Translations under genes and position numbers: made by a program | NCBI GenBank assembly: GCA_030653355.1 | Contig: JAURZN010000175.1 | Span: 1-33,533 of the forward strand | DNA from: Gallionella sp. | GTDB taxonomy: Bacteria; Pseudomonadota; Gammaproteobacteria; Burkholderiales; Gallionellaceae | DNA: 33,533 nt | Direction: 5' to 3' | Part shown: positions 9,263 to 33,533 of the stretch, piece by piece | How positions within the stretch are numbered: position 1 is the stretch's first letter | Layout of the letters: every line of letters begins with the position of its first letter | The notes under the pieces: generated by a model | What the model was told of the DNA's origin: nothing | Seen by the model: the letters and a program-made list of their open reading frames with translations, nothing else | Database searches by the model: none

Positions 9263-10111
9263 CTAGAAATATTTTTTTATTATCACTTTTAGTGTTTTCT
9301 GCAAATATCCTCGATCGGATTGTCCAATCTCGCCGTATAGCGTGGCGGCGACAGTTATGAAGATACTAACTACTTCAGGATCAAAATGTCCCCCGGCTCC
9401 ATCCTGTAAAATTTTTAATGTGTCATCAATCAACAAGGGGGCCTTGTAGGGCCGTTTGGACATCAATGCATCGAACACATCCACCACGGCAAACAATCTT
9501 GCGGCAAGCGGAATCTCCTTACCATGAATGCCATGTGGGTAGCCGCTGCCATCGAATTTTTCATGATGGAAAAGCACCACGTCCCGGGCGCGCTTCAGCC
9601 AAGTGGAATCCTGGATAATCTCGCCGCCAAATATCACATGTCGTTTCATAATCTCAAACTCATCCGCAGTCAGTCGCCCCGGTTTCAGTAGTATCTGATC
9701 CGGAACTCCAATTTTTCCGACATCGTGCAGAAAAGCACCAACAATCAGCGATTCGATGCTATCTCGATTCAGGTTCATTGTTTCGGCAAGCCTGACCGAA
9801 TACAGCGTCACCCGGTAATTATGCGTATCGGTATCGGCATCTCTTTTTGCTATAGCGCTACCCAATGATTGCAATAATTCAAGGTTCGAATCCAAAAGCG
9901 ATTGAGACAGGGACTCGGACCGCCGCGTCAATCCAAGTAAAACGGGGTAAAGCAAGATTAAAATCAAAATCACCGCAACGAAAGAAGTCAGTGTTGCATT
10001 GCGCGCCTGATGTTTTCTTGCATATTGCGTTCCAACATCAAGACGATAGACGCCTTCAAAATACACTTCCTTCACACGCATCGAATCAAGCAGTGGTATG
10101 AGCACTTGCAC
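9263..10111 (-). CDS. HD-GYP domain protein, catalytic part downstream of an in-frame stop
   Basis: HD-GYP proteins hydrolyse cyclic di-GMP. This 282-residue part, read from a GTG at 10111, has a periplasmic stretch, a transmembrane helix (residues 42-62), a linker and a complete HD-GYP domain: HD in FLHDVGKIG (129-130), then HHEKFDGSGYP (182-192), RLFAVVDVFDALMSKRPYK and GGHFDPEVV. All metal-binding residues appear present. The same frame continues upstream without a break, through 24 further codons, to a TAA at 10184-10186, beyond which the N-terminal sensor half lies in the same frame. The original gene therefore probably encoded about 426 residues. Reinitiation at GTG, with GAGG 11 bases upstream, could still make this half. 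It is an unusual gene for a metal cluster. Confidence 0.8.
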   Translation of the reverse strand: MQVLIPLLDSMRVKEVYFEGVYRLDVGTQYARKHQARNATLTSFVAVILILILLYPVLLGLTRRSESLSQSLLDSNLELLQSLGSAIAKRDADTDTHNYRVTLYSVRLAETMNLNRDSIESLIVGAFLHDVGKIGVPDQILLKPGRLTADEFEIMKRHVIFGGEIIQDSTWLKRARDVVLFHHEKFDGSGYPHGIHGKEIPLAARLFAVVDVFDALMSKRPYKAPLLIDDTLKILQDGAGGHFDPEVVSIFITVAATLYGEIGQSDRGYLQKTLKVIIKKYF

Positions 10112-10183
10112 GAAATCTTCATCCTCATTCGTTAGCCAGTTATAGTGTTGCTTGCCTGGCTTTGGAAAAACATGCTGATGCGC

Positions 10184-10531
10184 TTACACAGTACTTCGAA
10201 GACTGCCGGCCTCCATCCCCCATGCTTCCATCAATGATTTTCCGGATGAATCGAAAATACGGATACCTGCAAAGCTGGAGTTCTCCAATAGTTTGGCAAG
10301 TTCAAGCTGACTCATTTGAGAGTCCGCCGCAACCAGTTTCCGCATTTCAGGGGAATCGAAATGTCTGGCACTTGCCGCAGCTTGTTCAAAGGCCATCTTT
10401 TCGACTCTCCAGTTTTCCAGATAAAAAACAAGTGTGCCGACAAGTACGCTGATCAATATGCCTGATACAAAAAATCTTGTAAGCAGATAACGATGGAGTT
10501 CTCTGGAATTATTGGGAATGGCTGCAAACAT
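10184..10531 (-). pseudogene. N-terminal sensor fragment of the interrupted HD-GYP protein
   Basis: These 115 residues from the ATG at 10531 (a TTG at 10543 is the alternative) have one transmembrane helix (FFVSGILISVLVGTLVFYL) followed by a periplasmic sensor-like segment with FAGIRIFDSSGKSLMEAW. The frame ends in TAA at 10184, and the next codons in the same frame lead directly into the HD-GYP part at 10111. The periplasmic domain would therefore be split between the two products. Most likely this is the front of a single membrane sensor phosphodiesterase broken by a nonsense change (CAA to TAA is the simplest). No good ribosome binding site is seen at either start. Confidence 0.7.
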
Positions 10532-10551
10532 GATTTTCTGCAATGCCTCAT

Positions 10552-10567
10552 TTCAAATTTATTTGAA
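10552..10567. promoter_or_regulatory. 16-base perfect palindrome upstream of the HD-GYP gene
   Basis: TTCAAATTTATTTGAA is perfectly self-complementary and ends within 10-25 bases of the candidate starts of the interrupted HD-GYP gene, so it could be an operator. AT-rich palindromes of this length do arise by chance, and no cognate regulator is known. Confidence 0.28.
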
Positions 10568-10681
10568 TCTGATTGATAGTTGACTTGCTGGCTTTGTCAA
10601 AAAAGCCGACATATCAATTCAAACGGGGAAAAAATGTACGCCAAAATATTGTTCATCCTGGCGCACACTGAAACACGTAAT

Positions 10682-10960
10682 TTAGTGCTTCTCTTTCAAG
10701 TGATCGTGCATAGGCATGTCTTTAGGCATGGATTCACGATGACTCTTACCGCTCGCAGTGCTTCCGACAGGCATGCCAGTTTTCTCTTCCATATGACTGT
10801 GTCTTTTCACAGGCTTTTTTGCCTCTGCCTTTTCAGTCTTAACTGTCTCAGTTTTTTCCGTTCCGGTGTTGGTGTCGTGAACATCAACGGCAAATGCCGT
10901 TACATTGAAAACAGAAAATATAACCAAAGTGGCAGCAAGCAATGTAGATTTAAGTTTCAT
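10682..10960 (-). CDS. small periplasmic His/Met/Lys-rich protein
   Basis: This 92-residue protein starts at the ATG at 10960 with GGAGAA upstream; a longer frame to 11038 has no such site. Residues 1-24 are a classic signal peptide (MKLKSTLLAATLVIFSVFNV, ending TAFA). The mature protein is disordered-looking, rich in Lys/Glu/Thr, and then carries scattered His and Met (RHSHMEEKTGM, HRESMPKDMPMHDH), as in periplasmic copper-binding peptides. There is no conserved domain I recognise. A metal-buffering role is inferred from composition and location. Confidence 0.68.
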   Translation of the reverse strand: MKLKSTLLAATLVIFSVFNVTAFAVDVHDTNTGTEKTETVKTEKAEAKKPVKRHSHMEEKTGMPVGSTASGKSHRESMPKDMPMHDHLKEKH

Positions 10961-25615: not shown

Positions 25616-26437
25616 TTAGAGATCGCCGGGTTTGGTTTGAGTCAACACATAAATCCGCTCAACGAAGTCCTGCAACGACAACACGCCCGAACCCAGAATG
25701 ACCATTTTGTGTGTTTTGACATTACCGAGCACAAACAGCGGCACGGCATCTACCCCCAGCTTTGCGGATAGACCGTTGTCTTTAACCGAGGGAGGCAACC
25801 CGTCAATCGTTGATCCATCCAAACTGATCGGTAAAATTGTCATATCGTATTGGCGGGTAATCCATTGCAAGGTCGGCACCATGTGCTTGCAATAGGGGCA
25901 ATCACCCCGAAAGAAGAAGAATATCCCCCACTCTTTGGCAAGGTCGGCCATCGTGTTGTTTTGCCTGGCATCCCGGTCTCGCGTTGCCACCTTGATGGCG
26001 GAGTTATTCATTGGATTTTTAAGTTCAAAGTTCAGCTCGGCGGATTGCCACAGGACACGCCGCCATATATCCGCAAAATAGCTGGCACGGTCGATTTCAA
26101 CCTTCTGCGCGGCCATGTACGATTTGATGTTTTCTGCGGTGGGATGCACCACGGCCAGCGCGCGCTTGGCATCAAGGTCTTTGCGTATTTTCTCCAGCTC
26201 TTCGACAGCGAGCTCTTCTTTGGTCTTTACCGATTCTTCAGGTGTGCTGATTTCTTTGGGTTTCTTGACTGGCCGTGCTGCTTCTTCACAGTACCAGTTA
26301 AACTTTTCCTGACCATGACACGCCCATGCAGATGAATATTCCATGCCTGATGGATAATCTCGTCCTTCCAGCGCGAACAATGAGGTCGGCACTAACGCGG
26401 CCATCAAAATAAGCAAAGTTGGGATAGCCAGGCGCAT
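25616..26437 (-). CDS. traF: TraF, thioredoxin-fold pilus-assembly protein with CPYC
   Basis: This 273-residue periplasmic protein has a signal peptide (LAIPTLLILMAALVPTSLFA). A coiled-coil segment at about 65-95 (EELAVEELEKIRKDLDAKRA) precedes a thioredoxin fold with GDCPYCKHM (Cys180 and Cys183) and a cis-Pro region (VDAVPLFVLG). The TraF family aids F-pilus assembly. The intact CPYC suggests redox activity, possibly with DsbC encoded at the other end of this operon. It starts 3 bases after the trbI stop. Confidence 0.88.
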   Translation of the reverse strand: MRLAIPTLLILMAALVPTSLFALEGRDYPSGMEYSSAWACHGQEKFNWYCEEAARPVKKPKEISTPEESVKTKEELAVEELEKIRKDLDAKRALAVVHPTAENIKSYMAAQKVEIDRASYFADIWRRVLWQSAELNFELKNPMNNSAIKVATRDRDARQNNTMADLAKEWGIFFFFRGDCPYCKHMVPTLQWITRQYDMTILPISLDGSTIDGLPPSVKDNGLSAKLGVDAVPLFVLGNVKTHKMVILGSGVLSLQDFVERIYVLTQTKPGDL

Positions 26438-26440
26438 GAG

Positions 26441-26803
26441 TTACTTCTTGCCCAAGGCCAGCTCAGTGACGCGCTGTGTGTAATCGTAGGTGGTGCCGGG
26501 TGAATCTTTGATAATCGCAGCCGAGTTGATGAGAGTACATCTGCACTCGCCTGCTACCTGGGTAAGCGCGGCATCAAGCTGTTTGCCAAAGCGCGAAGCG
26601 GACTCAATGATTTCCGTTTGCGCTGTCTGATCCATGCCGGGCTTCATTTGCGCGGCCAATCTCTTTTGTTGCGAAGTGACAATACCGATAATGTCCACCT
26701 TCGCCATTGCGGGCGCGGGGTGAAAATGTTGCCATCCGGCCAAGACTGCGATAGTGACCGTTGCCGAGACAACGCCAGTGGTGAGGTGAGCGAGAGTGGA
26801 CAT
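26441..26803 (-). CDS. trbI: TrbI-like F-type conjugation membrane protein
   Basis: This is a 120-residue protein with one N-terminal membrane helix (TTGVVSATVTIAVLAGWQHF), then a periplasmic part with IIGIVTSQQKRLAAQM, SRFGKQLDAALTQVAGECRC and TLINSAAIIKDSPG. This matches the layout of F-plasmid TrbI, where a helix is followed by a short domain ending in a valine-rich strand. TrbI influences pilus retraction or assembly. GGGAAA lies upstream of the ATG. It is placed after traC as in F. Confidence 0.75.
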   Translation of the reverse strand: MSTLAHLTTGVVSATVTIAVLAGWQHFHPAPAMAKVDIIGIVTSQQKRLAAQMKPGMDQTAQTEIIESASRFGKQLDAALTQVAGECRCTLINSAAIIKDSPGTTYDYTQRVTELALGKK

Positions 26804-26815
26804 TTTGTTTCCCGA

Positions 26816-27010
26816 TTAAGCGATGATGCGAATCTGCAAGCCTGCATGAGTATCAAAAAACACCACGTCCTCACACAGGCAGAAAGACGCAGTAAATACC
26901 TTGTAGCCCGCATTTTTTAGCTCGCCAGCAATGTCCCTTGCCCGCTTTTCTTCGGTCTTGCAGCGTTCAATGATGCGACGAACGACTTTGCGTTTCATGT
27001 TGTTTGCCAT
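26816..27010 (-). CDS. small basic hypothetical protein between traC and trbI
   Basis: This 64-residue protein starts at the ATG at 27010 with AAGGA 8 bases upstream. It has a basic N-terminus (NMKRKVVRRIIERCKTEEKR) and a short central motif (FTASFCLCEDVVFF). There is no signal peptide or membrane helix. I recognise no family. Its good ribosome site, correct strand and tight position (12 bases before trbI) suggest it is a real gene of the transfer operon. Confidence 0.55.
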   Translation of the reverse strand: MANNMKRKVVRRIIERCKTEEKRARDIAGELKNAGYKVFTASFCLCEDVVFFDTHAGLQIRIIA

Positions 27011-27055
27011 TTTTAGTTTCCTTATGTGAATAAAGTTTTCGACTCGATCTTCGTG

Positions 27056-29641
27056 TTAAAAAAGTCCCATTTTTCGTCTGTCCTCGCGCGTTCCTTTGCG
27101 CCTGTCATTTTTGATTCTTTCGTTAAGCAATACCTCGATAGCCTGTTCGGTCGTCATGTTGTTTTGCTCGCGCATGGTCTTTATCCGCTCGAAATCTTCA
27201 GCGCGTGTGGAGAACAGCATCATTGAGAACGGATCAAGCAGTAAGCGACCAATCCCGGATCCCATCGGGCTATGCACAAAGATTTCCGAGTAATTGCCAT
27301 GATCGGTGGTGATAGAGGAAAGCTGGCGTTTCATCCACTCATCGATGGTGAGCTTGCCTTCTTTGCCTAGACGGTCAATGTTTTCCGGCTTCTGCCGCAG
27401 CAAGAACAGCCAGTCCGCATTATTGATGGTTGCTTTGGTTGCTTCCGTCTTGTAGTAGTCATCCACGCTTTGGGTGATCGTGCCGAATGCACCGCCGTAC
27501 TTTCTTGCCCTGCGATAACCGGCTTCGATGAAGTGTCCGCTGCTGCCGCTCCCCATCAAGTCCCACGCCTCGTCAATAATCACGATCTTGCGCCGGGAGC
27601 GATCCAGATACATTTCCTGTGTGATGCGATACATGATGATCTGCATGACCACCGCCTGAAGATCTCTTTTACTCTTGAGTTCCTCAAGCTCAAGCACGAT
27701 AAAGTCATTGTTAAATTCAATCGTTGCAGGACCTTCAAAGTAGCTCGCATATACGCCGTATTTTGTGTAGGGTTCAAGTGCGACGGCCATGTGCATCAAC
27801 TCCGTTTCGCTATCAGAACTCTCATTAATTTTGCCAATGCGTAGCAGCTCGTAAATGTCCGTGATGGTGGTGTCACTCCCCTTCACTCCCCATACCTGCT
27901 TGATAGCGGAAGCAAGTGCGGTATAGCAAAAGTTGTTCAGGGGCTCACGCGGACTCGCCATTTCAGCCAGGAGAGGAAGCAACATTTCCATGTCGTTATT
28001 GATGTCCCTGACCATCGAGAATGGATTGAGGCACAGCGTATTGTCACGCTCGTCAGTAAATTCAATGAATTCGCCGCCCATCAACTCGCACAAATTTTTG
28101 TAACTGCGGCCTACGTCAATAATCCAGACTTTGGCATCGGCTGCACGATAGCGGTACGCCATTTCATTCACAAATACCGATTTGCCAGACCCGGATAACG
28201 CGGCCACCGCAAAATTGTAGTTACCACCCGTGTTGTCAAACAGGTCGAACCCCATCGGTTGCCCACGCCGCCCGAACAGGGTAATCAGCGGAGTCTTGGT
28301 CCCCTTCCACTCGGCAATCAACGGCGATGTCATCACCGCGTTGTCGAGCGTCTTGGTGTAAGAACGCCCGAATGCAACCAAGTCTTCTTGCAATGGTTGT
28401 CCTAGCGTCATTGGTAGCGATGCGACAAATGCCTGATGCTGCAAATAATAGTCGCGCGACAGATCAAACCCCCTCGCACGCCACACCGATCTAACCGCGT
28501 GCTCAGCACGGGATGCATCAGCTTTTGTCGATAGCAGGCAGATTTGGTGGTACATGCGCAGCGTCCCCTTGCCTTCATCAAAAGCACCCAGCACAGCATC
28601 CCAGTCGCGCTTACGATCTTGTAGGTCTGGCTGAAATCTTGCCATGTACGAGGCCGCGTTCTGTGTAGCGCGAGCACTTTTTAGTTGCGCATAAGTGCGT
28701 GCGGATTCGTAATCTTGCACAACCGCGCCCATGGTGATCGAGAATGGGCATGGCATTGCCAGGGCAGCTTGGTATGGGTCGCCAATGACGCTGCTCATGT
28801 GATTCAGGCGGCTATATTTCGGGTAGTTCCTGACCGAGAAAAACTGCATAACAGTTTCTTGGCCGCCACTCTTGCAAGACCGGATGCCTTCATCGCTAAC
28901 GCAGGATGCAATTTCGCGGTTGGACAGTTGTTCGCGGATTATTTGGTTGGGGTTGTAACTCAAGGACAACTCGCTGCGCTTCTCAGGACAAAACACCCGC
29001 TCGTGATCGAAGAAATCGCCCACAAAATCCAGCAGGTGATCCGGGGTCCAATCGAACCCATCCAAGTTCGCCGACCTGAGTGTTGCACGGACACTCTCAC
29101 GCGTCCTGATCGCCTCCTCTACATCCCCCACTTCAAAAGGGGAAAGTGGCAACGTGATCGAAATGACGCACCTGAAATTGCGCAACCAATACACCCTGTT
29201 GGCTAGTAGCGATTTGGACGTACCCCCCATGTAGTATTCATTGCGTCGCGTCGTTATCCCAGCCAGCTCGCTTACTCGCACCGTGTCTTTTTGTTTTTTC
29301 AACATAGGTGCGATATCTGGTGATGCGTACAGTGAAATCTGGATGCCTGTTTTAGCCATGCACGAATCGAACAGGCTGGACAGTATTTTCTCCATTTCAT
29401 CAGTTGCACCGGTCTGTGGGTCAATCTCGATGGCAAAGCCAATTGAAAACTGCTCTTTTTTGCCGAAACCGCCTTGATCCAGGATAAACAACCGTTCGGT
29501 TGGAATCCAGCCAACGTAGGGCAACAAACCGGCCAGTCTGGGGGTGCTGGTGAATTGCTCGATCAAATGACGCGGAATCGCATCAGCACGGCCATATCTC
29601 TCATGCAGAAAGATATTTTTAAGTGCGCTTGTGAATGACAT
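27056..29641 (-). CDS. traC: TraC, VirB4-like ATPase of the F-type secretion system
   Basis: TraC is the cytosolic/membrane-associated ATPase that powers pilus assembly and DNA transfer. The start is the ATG at 29641 (MSFTSALKNIFLHERYGRAD), giving 861 residues, close to F TraC (875). A longer frame to 29899 would run back through traV and is not used. Walker A is ALSGSGKSVF (481-490) and Walker B is KIVIIDEAWD (684-693). The N-terminal half carries the TraC-specific domain (LLPYVGWIPTERLFILDQ). It begins one base after the traV stop. All nucleotide-binding residues appear intact, so it should be functional. Confidence 0.95.
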   Translation of the reverse strand: MSFTSALKNIFLHERYGRADAIPRHLIEQFTSTPRLAGLLPYVGWIPTERLFILDQGGFGKKEQFSIGFAIEIDPQTGATDEMEKILSSLFDSCMAKTGIQISLYASPDIAPMLKKQKDTVRVSELAGITTRRNEYYMGGTSKSLLANRVYWLRNFRCVISITLPLSPFEVGDVEEAIRTRESVRATLRSANLDGFDWTPDHLLDFVGDFFDHERVFCPEKRSELSLSYNPNQIIREQLSNREIASCVSDEGIRSCKSGGQETVMQFFSVRNYPKYSRLNHMSSVIGDPYQAALAMPCPFSITMGAVVQDYESARTYAQLKSARATQNAASYMARFQPDLQDRKRDWDAVLGAFDEGKGTLRMYHQICLLSTKADASRAEHAVRSVWRARGFDLSRDYYLQHQAFVASLPMTLGQPLQEDLVAFGRSYTKTLDNAVMTSPLIAEWKGTKTPLITLFGRRGQPMGFDLFDNTGGNYNFAVAALSGSGKSVFVNEMAYRYRAADAKVWIIDVGRSYKNLCELMGGEFIEFTDERDNTLCLNPFSMVRDINNDMEMLLPLLAEMASPREPLNNFCYTALASAIKQVWGVKGSDTTITDIYELLRIGKINESSDSETELMHMAVALEPYTKYGVYASYFEGPATIEFNNDFIVLELEELKSKRDLQAVVMQIIMYRITQEMYLDRSRRKIVIIDEAWDLMGSGSSGHFIEAGYRRARKYGGAFGTITQSVDDYYKTEATKATINNADWLFLLRQKPENIDRLGKEGKLTIDEWMKRQLSSITTDHGNYSEIFVHSPMGSGIGRLLLDPFSMMLFSTRAEDFERIKTMREQNNMTTEQAIEVLLNERIKNDRRKGTREDRRKMGLF

Positions 29642-29642
29642 G

Positions 29643-30164
29643 CTAATTTGACCCTTGTGATTGCTCTTGCCCAAACTGGCTTTGTGGCAACACTGATTGC
29701 GGTACCGCCGGTTGCGATAATGCGGGTTGTGGCTTTGCAATCGGTGCCATGACACGATATTGGTTGGCAATTTTTTGGGTGCTATGAGCCACTTGCCAAT
29801 GCCCCGGATCGGCAACGGCATACAGGAATGCCTGATCGTGCAACACCTTTCTGCTGTCTTCCCACGGAGCAACCCACACACGCAATACACTTGGCGCACT
29901 CAGTACGGGTGTGCCTGTTTGATGGGCTTCACCAACGACCCTCTCGGCTACTTTGGCTTGATTTTCCTTACTGTATCTGGAGAATGGTTTTGCTGCCGAA
30001 CCAGGCAGGTTATCAGCAACAGCATTGGCATAGACTCCCGATAGTGATGAGCAGTTAATGCCCGGTGGCGCTTTGCAGGTGAACGACTTTTGGGCATCAA
30101 GTCCTACCATGCTGCATCCGGTGATGCTCAAGCAAGCCGCCATTACTGAAATCCCAACACGCAT
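29643..30164 (-). CDS. traV: TraV outer-membrane lipoprotein
   Basis: This 173-residue lipoprotein has lipobox SITGC with Cys at residue 17, followed by KSFTCKAPPGINCSSLSGVY, the Cys-containing TraV signature. TraV anchors the TraK/TraB outer-membrane core of F-type systems. The start at 30164 (MRVGISVMAACLSITGC) is chosen because GGAG precedes it at 8 bases and its ATG overlaps the dsbC stop (TAATG); an ATG at 30188 lies inside dsbC. The C-terminal 30 residues are rich in Pro and Gln. Confidence 0.88.
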   Translation of the reverse strand: MRVGISVMAACLSITGCSMVGLDAQKSFTCKAPPGINCSSLSGVYANAVADNLPGSAAKPFSRYSKENQAKVAERVVGEAHQTGTPVLSAPSVLRVWVAPWEDSRKVLHDQAFLYAVADPGHWQVAHSTQKIANQYRVMAPIAKPQPALSQPAVPQSVLPQSQFGQEQSQGSN

Positions 30165-30898
30165 TATTTTTGCTCCTTGTTTAGCCATTTCTCGATTTGG
30201 TCTGCTGCCGCCATGCCTGGCAATACGCGACCGTCTGCGGCGATCAGTGTGGGCGTGCCATTGATATTGAACTTTTGACCGAGCTGGACATTGCGTTCAA
30301 TCGGGCTGTCGCAGTGCTTGTCTGTCACAGGTGCTTTGTCGTGCAGCATGTAGTCACGCCACGCGGCTGACTTGTCGATTGAACACCATATCCCCTTTGC
30401 TTTTTTGGATGCCTCTGGATGCAGCCCATCCAAGGGCATCAGGAAGGTGTAGATCGTCACATTGCTTAACTTGGGTAGTTCTTGCTCCAGCTTCTTGCAA
30501 TAAGGGCAGTCTGGATCGGAAAAAATCGCCAGCACCCGCTCGCCCTTGCCACGCACAGTCTTAATGGCATCCTCAAGAGGCAACTCCGAAAAATTCACTA
30601 CGTTTAGCTCGTCAAGACGTTGGGCTGTTAAGTCTTGCTGGGTCTTCATGTCAAAAATATGGCCAAACAGGAAGTAGCGCCCTTCGCTGTTTGTATAGCC
30701 AATATTTTTGCCCATAGCCACTTCGTAAATCCCGTCGATGCCGGTTTTGCGCACGTCACTGATCTGCGTTGACGGGTAGAGGTCGCGCAATGTTTTTGTA
30801 ACGTCCTTTGCTGCGCTGCTGTCATCCCAATTGCCAGCTTGAACTGCGGTCGCGCAAATCAATAACAACATGGCAAATAGCTTGGTTTTGTATTTCAT
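30164..30898 (-). CDS. dsbC: DsbC-type periplasmic disulfide isomerase of the transfer operon
   Basis: This 244-residue protein has a signal peptide (KLFAMLLLICATAVQAG), an N-terminal dimerisation domain (DVTKTLRDLYPSTQISDVRK; GRYFLFGHIFDM) and a thioredoxin domain with SDPDCPYCKKL (Cys131 and Cys134) and cis-Pro region NGTPTLIAADGR. DsbC-like or TrbB-like isomerases are often encoded in F-type operons to fold Cys-rich proteins such as TraV, TraU, TraN and TraH. AGGAG lies 8-9 bases before the ATG. The left inverted repeat of a mobile element begins 20 bases upstream of the start codon, so its native upstream genes have been separated from it. Confidence 0.92.
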   Translation of the reverse strand: MKYKTKLFAMLLLICATAVQAGNWDDSSAAKDVTKTLRDLYPSTQISDVRKTGIDGIYEVAMGKNIGYTNSEGRYFLFGHIFDMKTQQDLTAQRLDELNVVNFSELPLEDAIKTVRGKGERVLAIFSDPDCPYCKKLEQELPKLSNVTIYTFLMPLDGLHPEASKKAKGIWCSIDKSAAWRDYMLHDKAPVTDKHCDSPIERNVQLGQKFNINGTPTLIAADGRVLPGMAAADQIEKWLNKEQK

Positions 30899-30917
30899 TG
30901 ATAAGTCTCCTATTTAT

Positions 30918-30940
30918 CTAGCCGTTCCGCAAAGGTGTGT
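30918..30940 (+). repeat. left terminal inverted repeat
   Basis: These 23 bases begin CTAGCCGTTCC and end AAAGGTGTGT, and perfectly mirror 33511-33533. The repeat lies 6 bases upstream of the dsbC ribosome binding site and immediately before the transposase leader. Confidence 0.85.
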
Positions 30941-30959
30941 GCTTTGGTTAATGGTAGCG

Positions 30960-30965
30960 TATAAT
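30960..30965 (+). promoter_or_regulatory. -10 box of the transposase gene
   Basis: A perfect TATAAT lies 20 bases inside the left repeat and about 20 bases before the AGGAG at 30986-30990. No good -35 is present at 16-18 bases, where the repeat end lies, so the promoter may be weak. Confidence 0.4.
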
Positions 30966-30996
30966 CCCCTGTAGTGTAAAGCAATAGGAGATTATC

Positions 30997-32751
30997 ATTT
31001 CCGGTATAAATTCTTCCGCAGCAAGTTCGGGTCGCGTACCCGCTGAAGCTGACGGCATCCAGGTCAATTTCTGCAAAAACCCTGCTTGCAGTAACTACGG
31101 TGTCACGCCTAAAACAACCGTGTTGCGCGGGAGAACAGATCATGGATTGCAGGATAGCTACCTTGTACAAGCGTCTGGCGGAATTCCAGTGCTTCATTGT
31201 CGCGTATGTGGAGAAAATCCCCCGGTCAAAAGCAACACGGCCATTGCAGAGGAACGTGCGCGTTACCTCAAGGATTTAGTCATAGCGCCGGAACCGTCCT
31301 GCCCTGACGAATCTTGCTCCAATCACACTATTCCTGTCGGCAAAGGCTACCAATCTATCGGACTGACTAAATCAGGATCACGCCGTTACCGTTGCAACGT
31401 ATGCAAAAAAACCTTCTCGGTAGGCAAATCCACCACTGGCCATAAGCAGCCGCATAAGAATCGGTTGATATTCTCACTGCTAATGAATAAGTCACCATTC
31501 CGCCGAATTTGCGAGGTCGCCGACATCGGGCCGGAATCCGTCTATGGCAAAATTGACTTTCTCTATCGCCAGTGCCTCGCTTTCGCTGCCGACCGTGAGA
31601 AGCGTCTGCTGTCCGGTATGAAAATACCGCGCCTGTACATAGGTGTTGACCGGCAGGACTACATGGTAAATTGGACGCGGAACGCAGACCGTCGTAATGT
31701 AATGCTGCATGCGGTAGGCTCTGCCGACAATGCCACCGGTTACGTCTTCGGCATGCACCTCAACTACGATGCCGCAATGGATTCGGAAGTCATTGAAAAA
31801 GAGGCTGTAATCGTTGGTGACTATCAAGTCAAAGCCCCCTTCAGACATTATGCGCGCTGTTGGCTGAAAGAGGATTACACCGCCGCTATACTAAAAAATG
31901 CGAGTCGAAAAAGGAAGGCAACGCAAGGCTTACAAAGCGATATTGAGGCAGCCTACCTGAATGCCGACCAACGGGATGATATCGAGGTATCTGAAACGCA
32001 AGACGCTGGCCGTAAGCTGCCAACCAAAGGGGTGCAGATTCATGCTGAGTACAGCCTGTATGGGCATTTCTTCTTCCTGAAGAAGTTATTGGGTGGCGTA
32101 GAGAAATTACGCTTCTTTCTGGATCAGGACTCGGGAATGCGCGCCGCATGCCTTGCCACATTCCAACCTGAGATTACCGCACGCCGGGCCGATGCTTTTT
32201 ATGTGCGCATCGCCAAGGAAATGACCATTGCTGAAAAACGAGCGGCCATCGCATTGAGCCGAACTGAGTTTGAGAATGCACGCCAAGCCAACCCTGGACT
32301 GTCAGATACAGAGCTGAAAACGTTGCTCATCAAGGAACGTATAAGGCACATGGCTACCATCGGTAAGTGGCAAGATCGGTGGATGCTGCACCCATTTCCA
32401 AATATGAGTGAACCGGAAAAGGCGGTGTGCTACCTGACGGATTATAAGGATTACGATGCCGATCATTTGGCGCGTCTTTATAACAAGGCATCGTTACACG
32501 CCATTGATTGTTTCTTTATGCAGGTGAGGCGGCGACTGTCCATACTTGAACGCCCCATTGTTTCGGCGAGTAACACGGGGCGTACCTGGTATGGCTACAG
32601 CGCCTATAACCCGGAAACCATTGTGAAGATGCTGGGCATCTTCCGCGTGTTCTACAACTACTGCTTGGCTGGGCAGGATAAGAAAACACCGGCTATGCGG
32701 CTGGGCTTGGCAAAGGGCAAGGTCAGCCTGGAAGATATTATTTATCACTAG
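30997..32751 (+). CDS. double zinc-ribbon DDE-like transposase, apparent ATT start
   Basis: The product is about 584 residues if started at ATT 30997; the first standard start is GTG at 31120. The region before GTG encodes VNFCKNPACSNYG, whose cysteines (26, 31) pair with HCRVC (68, 71) in a first zinc ribbon. A second ribbon uses CPDESC (102-107) and RYRCNVCKKTFSV (133, 136). The catalytic-like core follows: LYIGVDRQDYMVNW (Asp near 218), FFLDQDSGMRAA (Asp near 376/378) and a C-terminal helix RRRLSILERPI with Glu near 519. These fit a DDE transposase, with the third residue tentative. AGGAG (30986-30990) is 6 bases before the ATT; the frame is closed upstream by TAG at 30985. It lies within perfect terminal repeats, supporting a transposase role. 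Confidence 0.72.
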   Translation: MSGINSSAASSGRVPAEADGIQVNFCKNPACSNYGVTPKTTVLRGRTDHGLQDSYLVQASGGIPVLHCRVCGENPPVKSNTAIAEERARYLKDLVIAPEPSCPDESCSNHTIPVGKGYQSIGLTKSGSRRYRCNVCKKTFSVGKSTTGHKQPHKNRLIFSLLMNKSPFRRICEVADIGPESVYGKIDFLYRQCLAFAADREKRLLSGMKIPRLYIGVDRQDYMVNWTRNADRRNVMLHAVGSADNATGYVFGMHLNYDAAMDSEVIEKEAVIVGDYQVKAPFRHYARCWLKEDYTAAILKNASRKRKATQGLQSDIEAAYLNADQRDDIEVSETQDAGRKLPTKGVQIHAEYSLYGHFFFLKKLLGGVEKLRFFLDQDSGMRAACLATFQPEITARRADAFYVRIAKEMTIAEKRAAIALSRTEFENARQANPGLSDTELKTLLIKERIRHMATIGKWQDRWMLHPFPNMSEPEKAVCYLTDYKDYDADHLARLYNKASLHAIDCFFMQVRRRLSILERPIVSASNTGRTWYGYSAYNPETIVKMLGIFRVFYNYCLAGQDKKTPAMRLGLAKGKVSLEDIIYH

Positions 32752-32866
32752 CTCAGACCGTCTTATTGCTAGACGCGAGCGCAAGTAAAAGGTTAGGATA
32801 TAACGACTCAAATAATCCCAATATTTAGCAGCCTTACAGTTTAACAAATCATTTTTCAGGAGATTT

Positions 32867-33091
32867 ATGATGGCTCTCGTTTCATGTCACATATGTAATT
32901 CACCAGTTGCAGATGACGCTCCAAATTGTATGAAATGCGGAACGCCGGGGCCGAAGCAACAGAGGAAAAAAAACTTAATTAAAAATATGCGACTACTTGC
33001 ATTTGTAGCGGTGCTTGTAGTTCTTGGATATGCGTGGTTCGTGTTTATCCCCGAAATTCAACAACAGGGTTTGCTCAACAATGGCGGCTAA
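32867..33091 (+). CDS. small zinc-ribbon membrane protein carried by the element
   Basis: This 74-residue protein begins with one zinc ribbon (CHIC, Cys7 and Cys10; CMKC, Cys21 and Cys24), then a basic linker (QQRKKNLIKN), one transmembrane helix (residues 41-61, MRLLAFVAVLVVLGYAWFVF) and a short tail. AGGAG lies 6 bases before the first ATG. It starts 115 bases after the transposase gene. Its last 99 bases overlap the end of the gene on the other strand. The function is unknown; zinc-ribbon plus single-helix proteins are widespread and poorly characterised. Confidence 0.68.
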   Translation: MMALVSCHICNSPVADDAPNCMKCGTPGPKQQRKKNLIKNMRLLAFVAVLVVLGYAWFVFIPEIQQQGLLNNGG

Positions 33092-33487
33092 ATTCAGTAA
33101 GTCAGCATCAAGATTTTTTCTGTTCAATAGACAATCCCAAGCATCTCTAACCAGAGAAGTTAATTCTTGTTCGTATTTTGGTGAGTAAAGCAAAAAGGTA
33201 AGGCAGTAATTATCATCAAATACCCCCTTGATAAGCCAAAATGCTTTTAATCTTTTATCGTCAAACATGGCAGCCTCTCTTAACTGCTGTTCGATCAGTG
33301 CGGCAACTGCCACCGGTGCTTTGAAATATACATAAGGGGGTTTTCTCACAAAACCGCCAAAATGCCCTTGGCAAGATGCAACTGTTGTAATAACGCCAGT
33401 AGCATTCATGGTATCGACAAGGTTTTTTATCCTCTCATCAATTTCTGAGTAGGGTTTTTTAGCGAGAAATTTAAGCCAAGAAATCAT
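32993..33487 (-). CDS. hypothetical protein carried by the element, convergent with the zinc-ribbon gene
   Basis: This 164-residue soluble protein has WLKFLAKKPYSEIDERIKNL at the N-terminus, then ATGVITTVASCQGHFGGFVR (Cys39, His42) and KPPYVYFKAPVAVAALIEQQ. The SCQGH segment is faintly like the SCSGR motif of TYW3-type proteins, but I would not assign that function. AGGG lies about 10 bases before the ATG, and the start is 24 bases inside the right terminal repeat. The last 33 codons overlap the zinc-ribbon gene in antisense; the C-terminal tail (HEPRISKNYKHRYKCK) may be a by-product of that overlap. Its good codon structure supports a real gene. Confidence 0.62.
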   Translation of the reverse strand: MISWLKFLAKKPYSEIDERIKNLVDTMNATGVITTVASCQGHFGGFVRKPPYVYFKAPVAVAALIEQQLREAAMFDDKRLKAFWLIKGVFDDNYCLTFLLYSPKYEQELTSLVRDAWDCLLNRKNLDADLLNLAAIVEQTLLLNFGDKHEPRISKNYKHRYKCK

Positions 33488-33510
33488 CGCGCGATTCCCT
33501 GTCTGTTTTT

Positions 33511-33533
33511 ACACACCTTTGCGGAACGGCTAG
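33511..33533 (-). repeat. right terminal inverted repeat, ending at the window edge
   Basis: These 23 bases are the exact reverse complement of 30918-30940. They end at the last base of the window, so the true outer limit of the repeat is not visible. Confidence 0.85.

Follow-up and report, generated by a model that had tools for sequence, protein, structure and literature searches.

The IS1 family of insertion sequences has GG...TG ends and typically makes 9-bp target duplications. Members of the IS1595 family have passenger genes, a transposase of about 300 amino acids (aa), GGC ends and 8-bp duplications. It has long been asked how restriction-modification systems travel from genome to genome, as many of them have no visible vehicle. 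Furuta, Abe and Kobayashi reportedly described mobile forms of restriction-modification systems in 2010, which may bear on the novelty of the family presented here. We analyzed a 33,533-nucleotide contig of Gallionella sp. (GenBank assembly GCA_030653355.1, contig JAURZN010000175.1; contig C161 in our numbering and "the window" hereafter), whose last 2616 bases (30918–33533) are a 2.6-kb transposable element. We read this element as an autonomous unit transposon with exchangeable cargo, most often restriction-modification genes, and give this explanation as a whole a probability of about 0.87. The sole named relative found is Tn7491, a transposon carrying dfrG. Tn7491 was first seen inside Tn6198, has ends exactly as in two elements of our sample (L084 and L087) and is described with evidence of movement (PMC10763498).

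Copies of the element in the host genome

A preliminary description of the window, made from the letters alone, proposed a mobile element with perfect 23-base inverted ends. The coordinates proved exact and the two repeats are complementary at 23/23 positions. With up to three mismatches allowed, the 23-mer occurs in the 33,533 nucleotides only at the two element termini, and it appeared in 0/100 dinucleotide shuffles used as the control for chance repeats. Mobility was borne out by multicopy junctions, 9-bp duplications and ends shared across a family. The host assembly consists of 224 contigs with repeats collapsed and contains three left-end and four right-end junctions of the element, six of the seven on contigs other than the window's. 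The left 139 bp stand at the start of contigs C62 and C63 and the right 140–141 bp at the termini of C73, C64, C75 and C74, all at 100% identity. Pairing the flanks gave exact 9-bp duplications for C63/C73 (GCTTGTGGG), C62/C64 (AAGAAAAGG) and window/C74 (CCTATTTAT), and the C75 junction (CATCCCTTG) could be paired with none of the other junctions identified in the assembly. Three paired duplications plus one partnerless junction therefore amount to at least four insertions.

The window element is a complete, recently active transposon. Its target duplication escaped the preliminary description because the contig stops exactly where the right repeat ends. An assembly fold-back at the contig end was ruled out, since six other contigs end in 139–141 bp of the element and the flanks pair as 9-bp duplications. 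Chance inverted repeats were ruled out by the shuffle control, the target duplications and a blind scan of related loci (see below). When the C63 and C73 flanks were joined minus one duplication, a 229-codon frame, response regulator-like by eye, spanned the junction.

A family with shared ends

A scan of genome_contigs identified 54 loci of the family (L numbers) in Pseudomonadota, Thermodesulfobacteriota, Methylomirabilota, Acidobacteriota, a Clostridia metagenome-assembled genome and others. Ten of 199 related genomes, among them the one that holds the window, also have matches, as do two phages and 130 plasmid records (90 from Enterococcus; all but one below 60% identity). Among viral contigs, one of 27 pattern matches encoded a relative. 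Scanned blind, 14/30 loci yielded inverted ends together with a duplication, versus 0/90 controls that combined left and right sides of different loci. Ends alone reached the threshold in 88/90 of these controls, so the duplications carry the weight.

Using a motif built from the blind-scan ends plus longer flanks, we located the two ends of each of 32 distinct elements, 1.9–17.7 kb long, from several phyla. They comprise 19 genome_contigs loci as fetched, four more after longer flanks were added (L090, L093, L095 and L096), L089a and L091 as second copies in the genomes of these loci, four elements of related genomes (L114–L117), two from plasmid or phage records (L085 and L084) and the window. 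L084 and L087 are one element, and L016, which repeats L017, was not counted; at the other 30 genome_contigs loci, the element was truncated by a contig end, was a fragment or had no clear right end. Exact target duplications of at least 9 bp flank 26 of the 32 elements. L017 matches at 8/9 positions, the contig of L024 ends at the element, and no target duplication was found for L021, L022, L057 and L117. The end consensus of the delimited elements reads CAAGCCGTTCACTTAAGGTGTTGAAA, in which position 2 is A or T, and the ends are of the type CWAGCCGTTC...GTGTTGAA.

At L089 (2512–4432), two family elements are adjacent with one 9-bp duplication (GGCGAATCT) between them, as would result from insertion of one element at the other's edge. 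In L022 (100–2765), right-end motifs occur at both 2704 and 2765, 61 bp from each other, and may be left over from a second element.

Exchangeable cargo

The cargo lies between the transposase and the right end. In our own grouping of the 32 elements, 12 carry restriction-modification genes, five carry other defence or toxin-antitoxin genes, nine carry other or unknown genes and six carry none. The restriction-modification cargo includes Eco57I-type systems (L011 and L024), a D12 methylase with a NotI-type nuclease (L012), an N6 methylase with a specificity subunit (L013), a methylase with a weak type II nuclease match (L018), an Eco57I-type methylase with a BsuBI/PstI nuclease (L019), a methylase with ResIII in a type III-like arrangement (L090), an N6 methylase with an Eco57I match below the cut-off over two frames (L115) and a protein of about 1020 aa with N6/Eco57I matches (L091, L093, L095 and L096). 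The cultured bacterium Mariprofundus micogutta ET2 carries both L012 and L019. Left out of this count were L009, with an MmeI-type system and a right end beyond the contig, and L037/L119, with a type III system behind a broken transposase. Other defence or toxin-antitoxin cargo comprises AbiEii with a DUF6088/AbiEi-like protein (L026), AbiEii (L036), Fic (L035), PDC-S11 (L030) and Gp49 (L114). Other or unknown cargo is carried by the window, L021, L022, L029 (RNase_T), L032 (DUF192), L045, L051, L116 and L084 (dfrG), and there is no room for cargo in L017, L020, L057, L085, L089a and L117.

The four elements with the 1020-aa protein in common (9–17.7 kb) also contain further genes, such as those for an FRG-domain protein (L091), a flavin oxidoreductase (L093) and large proteins without Pfam matches. 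In L030, the candidate defence protein PDC-S11 (DUF4268) is encoded at 9821–10759, inside the delimited element. At L037/L119, the transposase is broken by stops and the type III pair and right end are retained; here, the cargo may outlive its vehicle.

The two passenger genes noted in the preliminary description are present in the window, where they overlap tail to tail by 99 bp. They encode a zinc-ribbon protein and a protein with a predicted TYW3-like fold, not a restriction-modification system. The Zn_ribbon_3 match of the first is below the cut-off, its hydrophobic segment is probably a membrane segment (by eye), and its homologue search listed three proteins, the window's own included. 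The second had no PADLOC match to a known defence protein. In the transposase tree, in which the L037 and L057 rows are short, the window groups with L009 (MmeI type, 79% identity) and L037 (type III), and L011 (IIG) and L010 are next out. This cluster carries differing cargo; therefore, cargo swaps behind similar transposases, and the shared part consists of transposase, ends and 9-bp duplication. The check proposed earlier, whether homologues are bounded by similar repeats with target duplications and hold the same passengers, came out largely positive for the boundaries and negative for the passengers. A fixed passenger pair as a family trait was rejected, given the different cargo behind close transposases.

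Cargo versus flanking genes

Cargo and flanking proteins (frames of at least 150 aa) were collected from 26 of the 32 elements, a set that does not include the window, L089a and L114–L117. The cargo set has 58 proteins, 57 of them in the PADLOC search (dfrG dropped); two small L021 frames and one L032 frame were outside the cargo searches. From 160 flanking proteins, all those of L084 (5) and L085 (9) were dropped, leaving 146 for phmmer and, with two long genes also dropped, 144 for PADLOC and Pfam. Methylase families led the PADLOC matches of the 57 cargo proteins (E ≤ 1e-5), with up to eight members each. The 144 flanking proteins matched 37 PADLOC families, and no restriction or methylase family was among the 25 of these 37 that were listed. 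The mad2 family matched 8/57 cargo and 4/144 flanking proteins. Pfam identified general methyltransferase domains in four flanking members, which probably explain the mad2 matches there. No restriction or DNA-methylase family was among the 25 of 219 Pfam families listed for the flanks, which include all families with at least two members. When 19 restriction-modification cargo proteins were used as phmmer queries (E ≤ 1e-4), they matched none of the 146 flanking proteins and 15 of the 58 cargo proteins, most of these 15 being queries themselves.

Transposase and left end

The preliminary description also called for a large transposase of about 584 residues with paired zinc ribbons, and the window indeed has a single unsplit frame, open for 584 codons from an ATT, that encodes two zinc ribbons plus an IS1 InsA-like part (Table 1). 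When only ATG, GTG and TTG starts were allowed, the frame was listed from GTG 31120; start rules without the ATT at 30997–30999 shorten the protein from 584 to 543 aa. Structure prediction, which had been proposed as a check, gave a model (predicted template modelling score, pTM, 0.80) with a matching RNase H core. In the model, D218 is within strand 210–223, D376 closes strand 368–376 and E518 opens helix 518–525, where the predicted local distance difference test score is about 60. D218, D376/D378 and E518 are invariant in 38 sequences. Thus, two of the three catalytic positions suggested earlier (D218 and D376/378) stand, and the third is E518 rather than E519. Structure comparison placed Hermes, Tn5, ISCth4 and integrase rows on top with moderate Z; a sequence search of solved structures returned only zinc-finger and other chance-like matches. 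The D, D and E of the model at the right strands and helix support a DDE (RNase H fold) enzyme.

The left end could control transposase expression. Many left ends share a layout in which a TATAAT-like box extends into a hairpin's 5' arm; a purine-rich stretch in the 3' arm then directly precedes a possible start codon. Stem scores of at least 9 were reached in 34/42 left ends versus 193/1680 shuffles, and the box, stem, purines and start occur in this order in 23/42 left ends by a lenient pattern with no shuffle control. By eye, the putative start position holds ATT in the window, L009, L010, L011 and L014 and TTG or ATG in many others. Consensus folding of 18 leaders (MAFFT alignment) gave six pairs with a covariation term near zero, which probably stems from misaligned hairpin arms. 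Counts of pair types came from 14 stems picked because they pair and show the variety of pair types rather than an independent test. Transcription from the promoter inside the element would leave out most of the 5' arm; a transcript entering from outside would form the full hairpin and mask the ribosome-binding site. Together with the weak start codon, the hairpin would keep transposase expression low. The same promoter and hairpin logic operates in IS10 and IS50.

Once made, the transposase would bind the element ends through its N-terminal zinc ribbons and helix-turn-helix (HTH), and D218, D376 (or D378) and E518 would catalyse transposition. One long DDE transposase would in this way recognise the ends and insert the element by a 9-bp staggered cut. 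The cargo slot is refilled often, and restriction-modification cargo would help host and element persist.

The window copy is located some 20 bp upstream of a gene that encodes DsbC_N and thioredoxin domains. The minus-strand genes beside it (25616–30898) look like a conjugative transfer region and include one for a DsbC-like protein and a 947-aa frame that by eye resembles a TraC-type ATPase.

Table 1. Features of the element and its insertion site in the window.
Feature	Coordinates	Strand	Remarks
Target-site duplication (9 bp), left copy	30909..30917	.	CCTATTTAT; right copy on contig C74
Left terminal inverted repeat	30918..30940	+	
TATAAT	30960..30965	+	likely promoter -10 box; similar box there in many relatives
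Hairpin 5' arm	30961..30972	+	overlaps TATAAT
Hairpin 3' arm	30984..30995	+	contains likely ribosome-binding site AGGAG (30986-30990)
Transposase, 584 aa	30997..32751	+	putative ATT start; stop 32749-32751
Passenger 1, 74 aa	32867..33091	+	zinc ribbon and hydrophobic segment
Passenger 2, 164 aa	32993..33487	-	predicted TYW3-like fold
Right terminal inverted repeat	33511..33533	-	also end of contig C161

Alternative explanations

Restriction-modification genes are common and clustered in islands, which also attract transposons, and could be chance neighbours of the elements. Single right ends could be mis-assigned, and mad2 matched flanking as well as cargo proteins. However, 11 of the 12 elements enclose these genes within an exact duplication of 9 bp or more (the exception, L024, runs to the end of its contig), and both the phmmer comparison, although most of its cargo matches are the queries themselves, and the listed Pfam families separate cargo from flanks. 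This makes chance proximity most improbable. We also consider it very unlikely that the window element is dead or non-autonomous and was mobilised by something else, as its non-standard transposase start and the failure to find a second full-length copy in the collapsed assembly might suggest. The 584-codon frame is intact, the ends are perfect and the junction sequences are 100% identical, with three duplications. Furthermore, L009, L010, L011 and L014 have ATT at the corresponding position, and the homologues P0006 and P0088 show ATG precisely there. That the promoter-hairpin pattern holds for 23 of the 42 left ends, and not for most, slightly lowers our confidence in the explanation as a whole.

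The element could instead be an unusually large IS1 family member already covered by ISfinder, in the long single-frame group that we take to be ISMhu11. The NCBIfam IS1 transposase model (NF033558) matches residues 122–247 (E 3.4e-9), and InsA of IS1A from E. coli K-12, whose zinc ribbon and HTH recur in the window transposase, aligns with the family (79% probability, E 1.6e-5). The 9-bp duplications are of the IS1 length, and the record of one relative is annotated "transpos_IS1 superfamily transposase". The NF033558 score, however, is 36.9 bits against a curated cut-off of 100, and InsB of IS1A, searched as a single sequence, had no match to the family alignment. In addition, IS1A ends start GGTGATG whereas the window element begins CTAGCCG, not GG...TG, and the 768-bp IS1A has split frames for InsA (91 aa) and InsB (167 aa) in contrast to the single 584-codon frame of the window. 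We therefore consider IS1 membership doubtful; sequence comparison places the family at a distance from IS1, as a relative and not as IS1 proper.

Relationship to described transposons

The likeness of the transposase to Tn5, Hermes and ISCth4 (IS256) is in the RNase H core, by structure comparison, and none of them turned up in the sequence search of solved structures. Likeness to the IS1595 family is in the zinc ribbon of the N-terminal region (IS1_IS1595_Zn, E 0.001, below the cut-off). The window differs from that family in its 584-aa transposase, CTAG ends and 9-bp duplications. The preliminary description had proposed an unrecognised and possibly new group. The family is indeed little-described and has shared ends, but it is distantly IS1-related and has a named relative. 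It often carries restriction-modification or other defence genes, and its distant relative carries trimethoprim resistance. Literature searches (titles and abstract starts) found no description of restriction-modification cargo in such a transposon family. The evidence leans somewhat toward a distinct and widespread group, named only via Tn7491, whose dedicated role in environmental bacteria is to carry restriction-modification and other defence genes, with cargo swapped behind a constant transposase. Such a carrier would mobilize type I-like, II, IIG and III systems, AbiE, Fic and others in elements that reach 17.7 kb with one recognised gene for transposition. With restriction-modification systems inside precisely bounded transposons with target duplications, tests can address the vehicle as well as its ends and cargo slot.

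The Tn7491 transposase is homologous to that of the window over its full length (tblastn, 23.5–24%; profile match with probability 99.9, E 4.2e-34) and very distant, forming the longest branch of the tree. Its ends (TAAGTAGTTC..) are comparable to the CWAGCCGTTC.. of the family, although the terminal repeats of window-type and dfrG elements have only xxAGxxGTTC in common. Like the window family, Tn7491 has a 9-bp duplication and a passenger gene downstream on the opposite strand. It differs in its Bacillota host, its dfrG cargo and a small open reading frame upstream of the transposase. In staphylococci, enterococci and Listeria, dfrG rides on a vehicle of this kind, and a clinical resistance transposon is thereby tied to a large environmental family.
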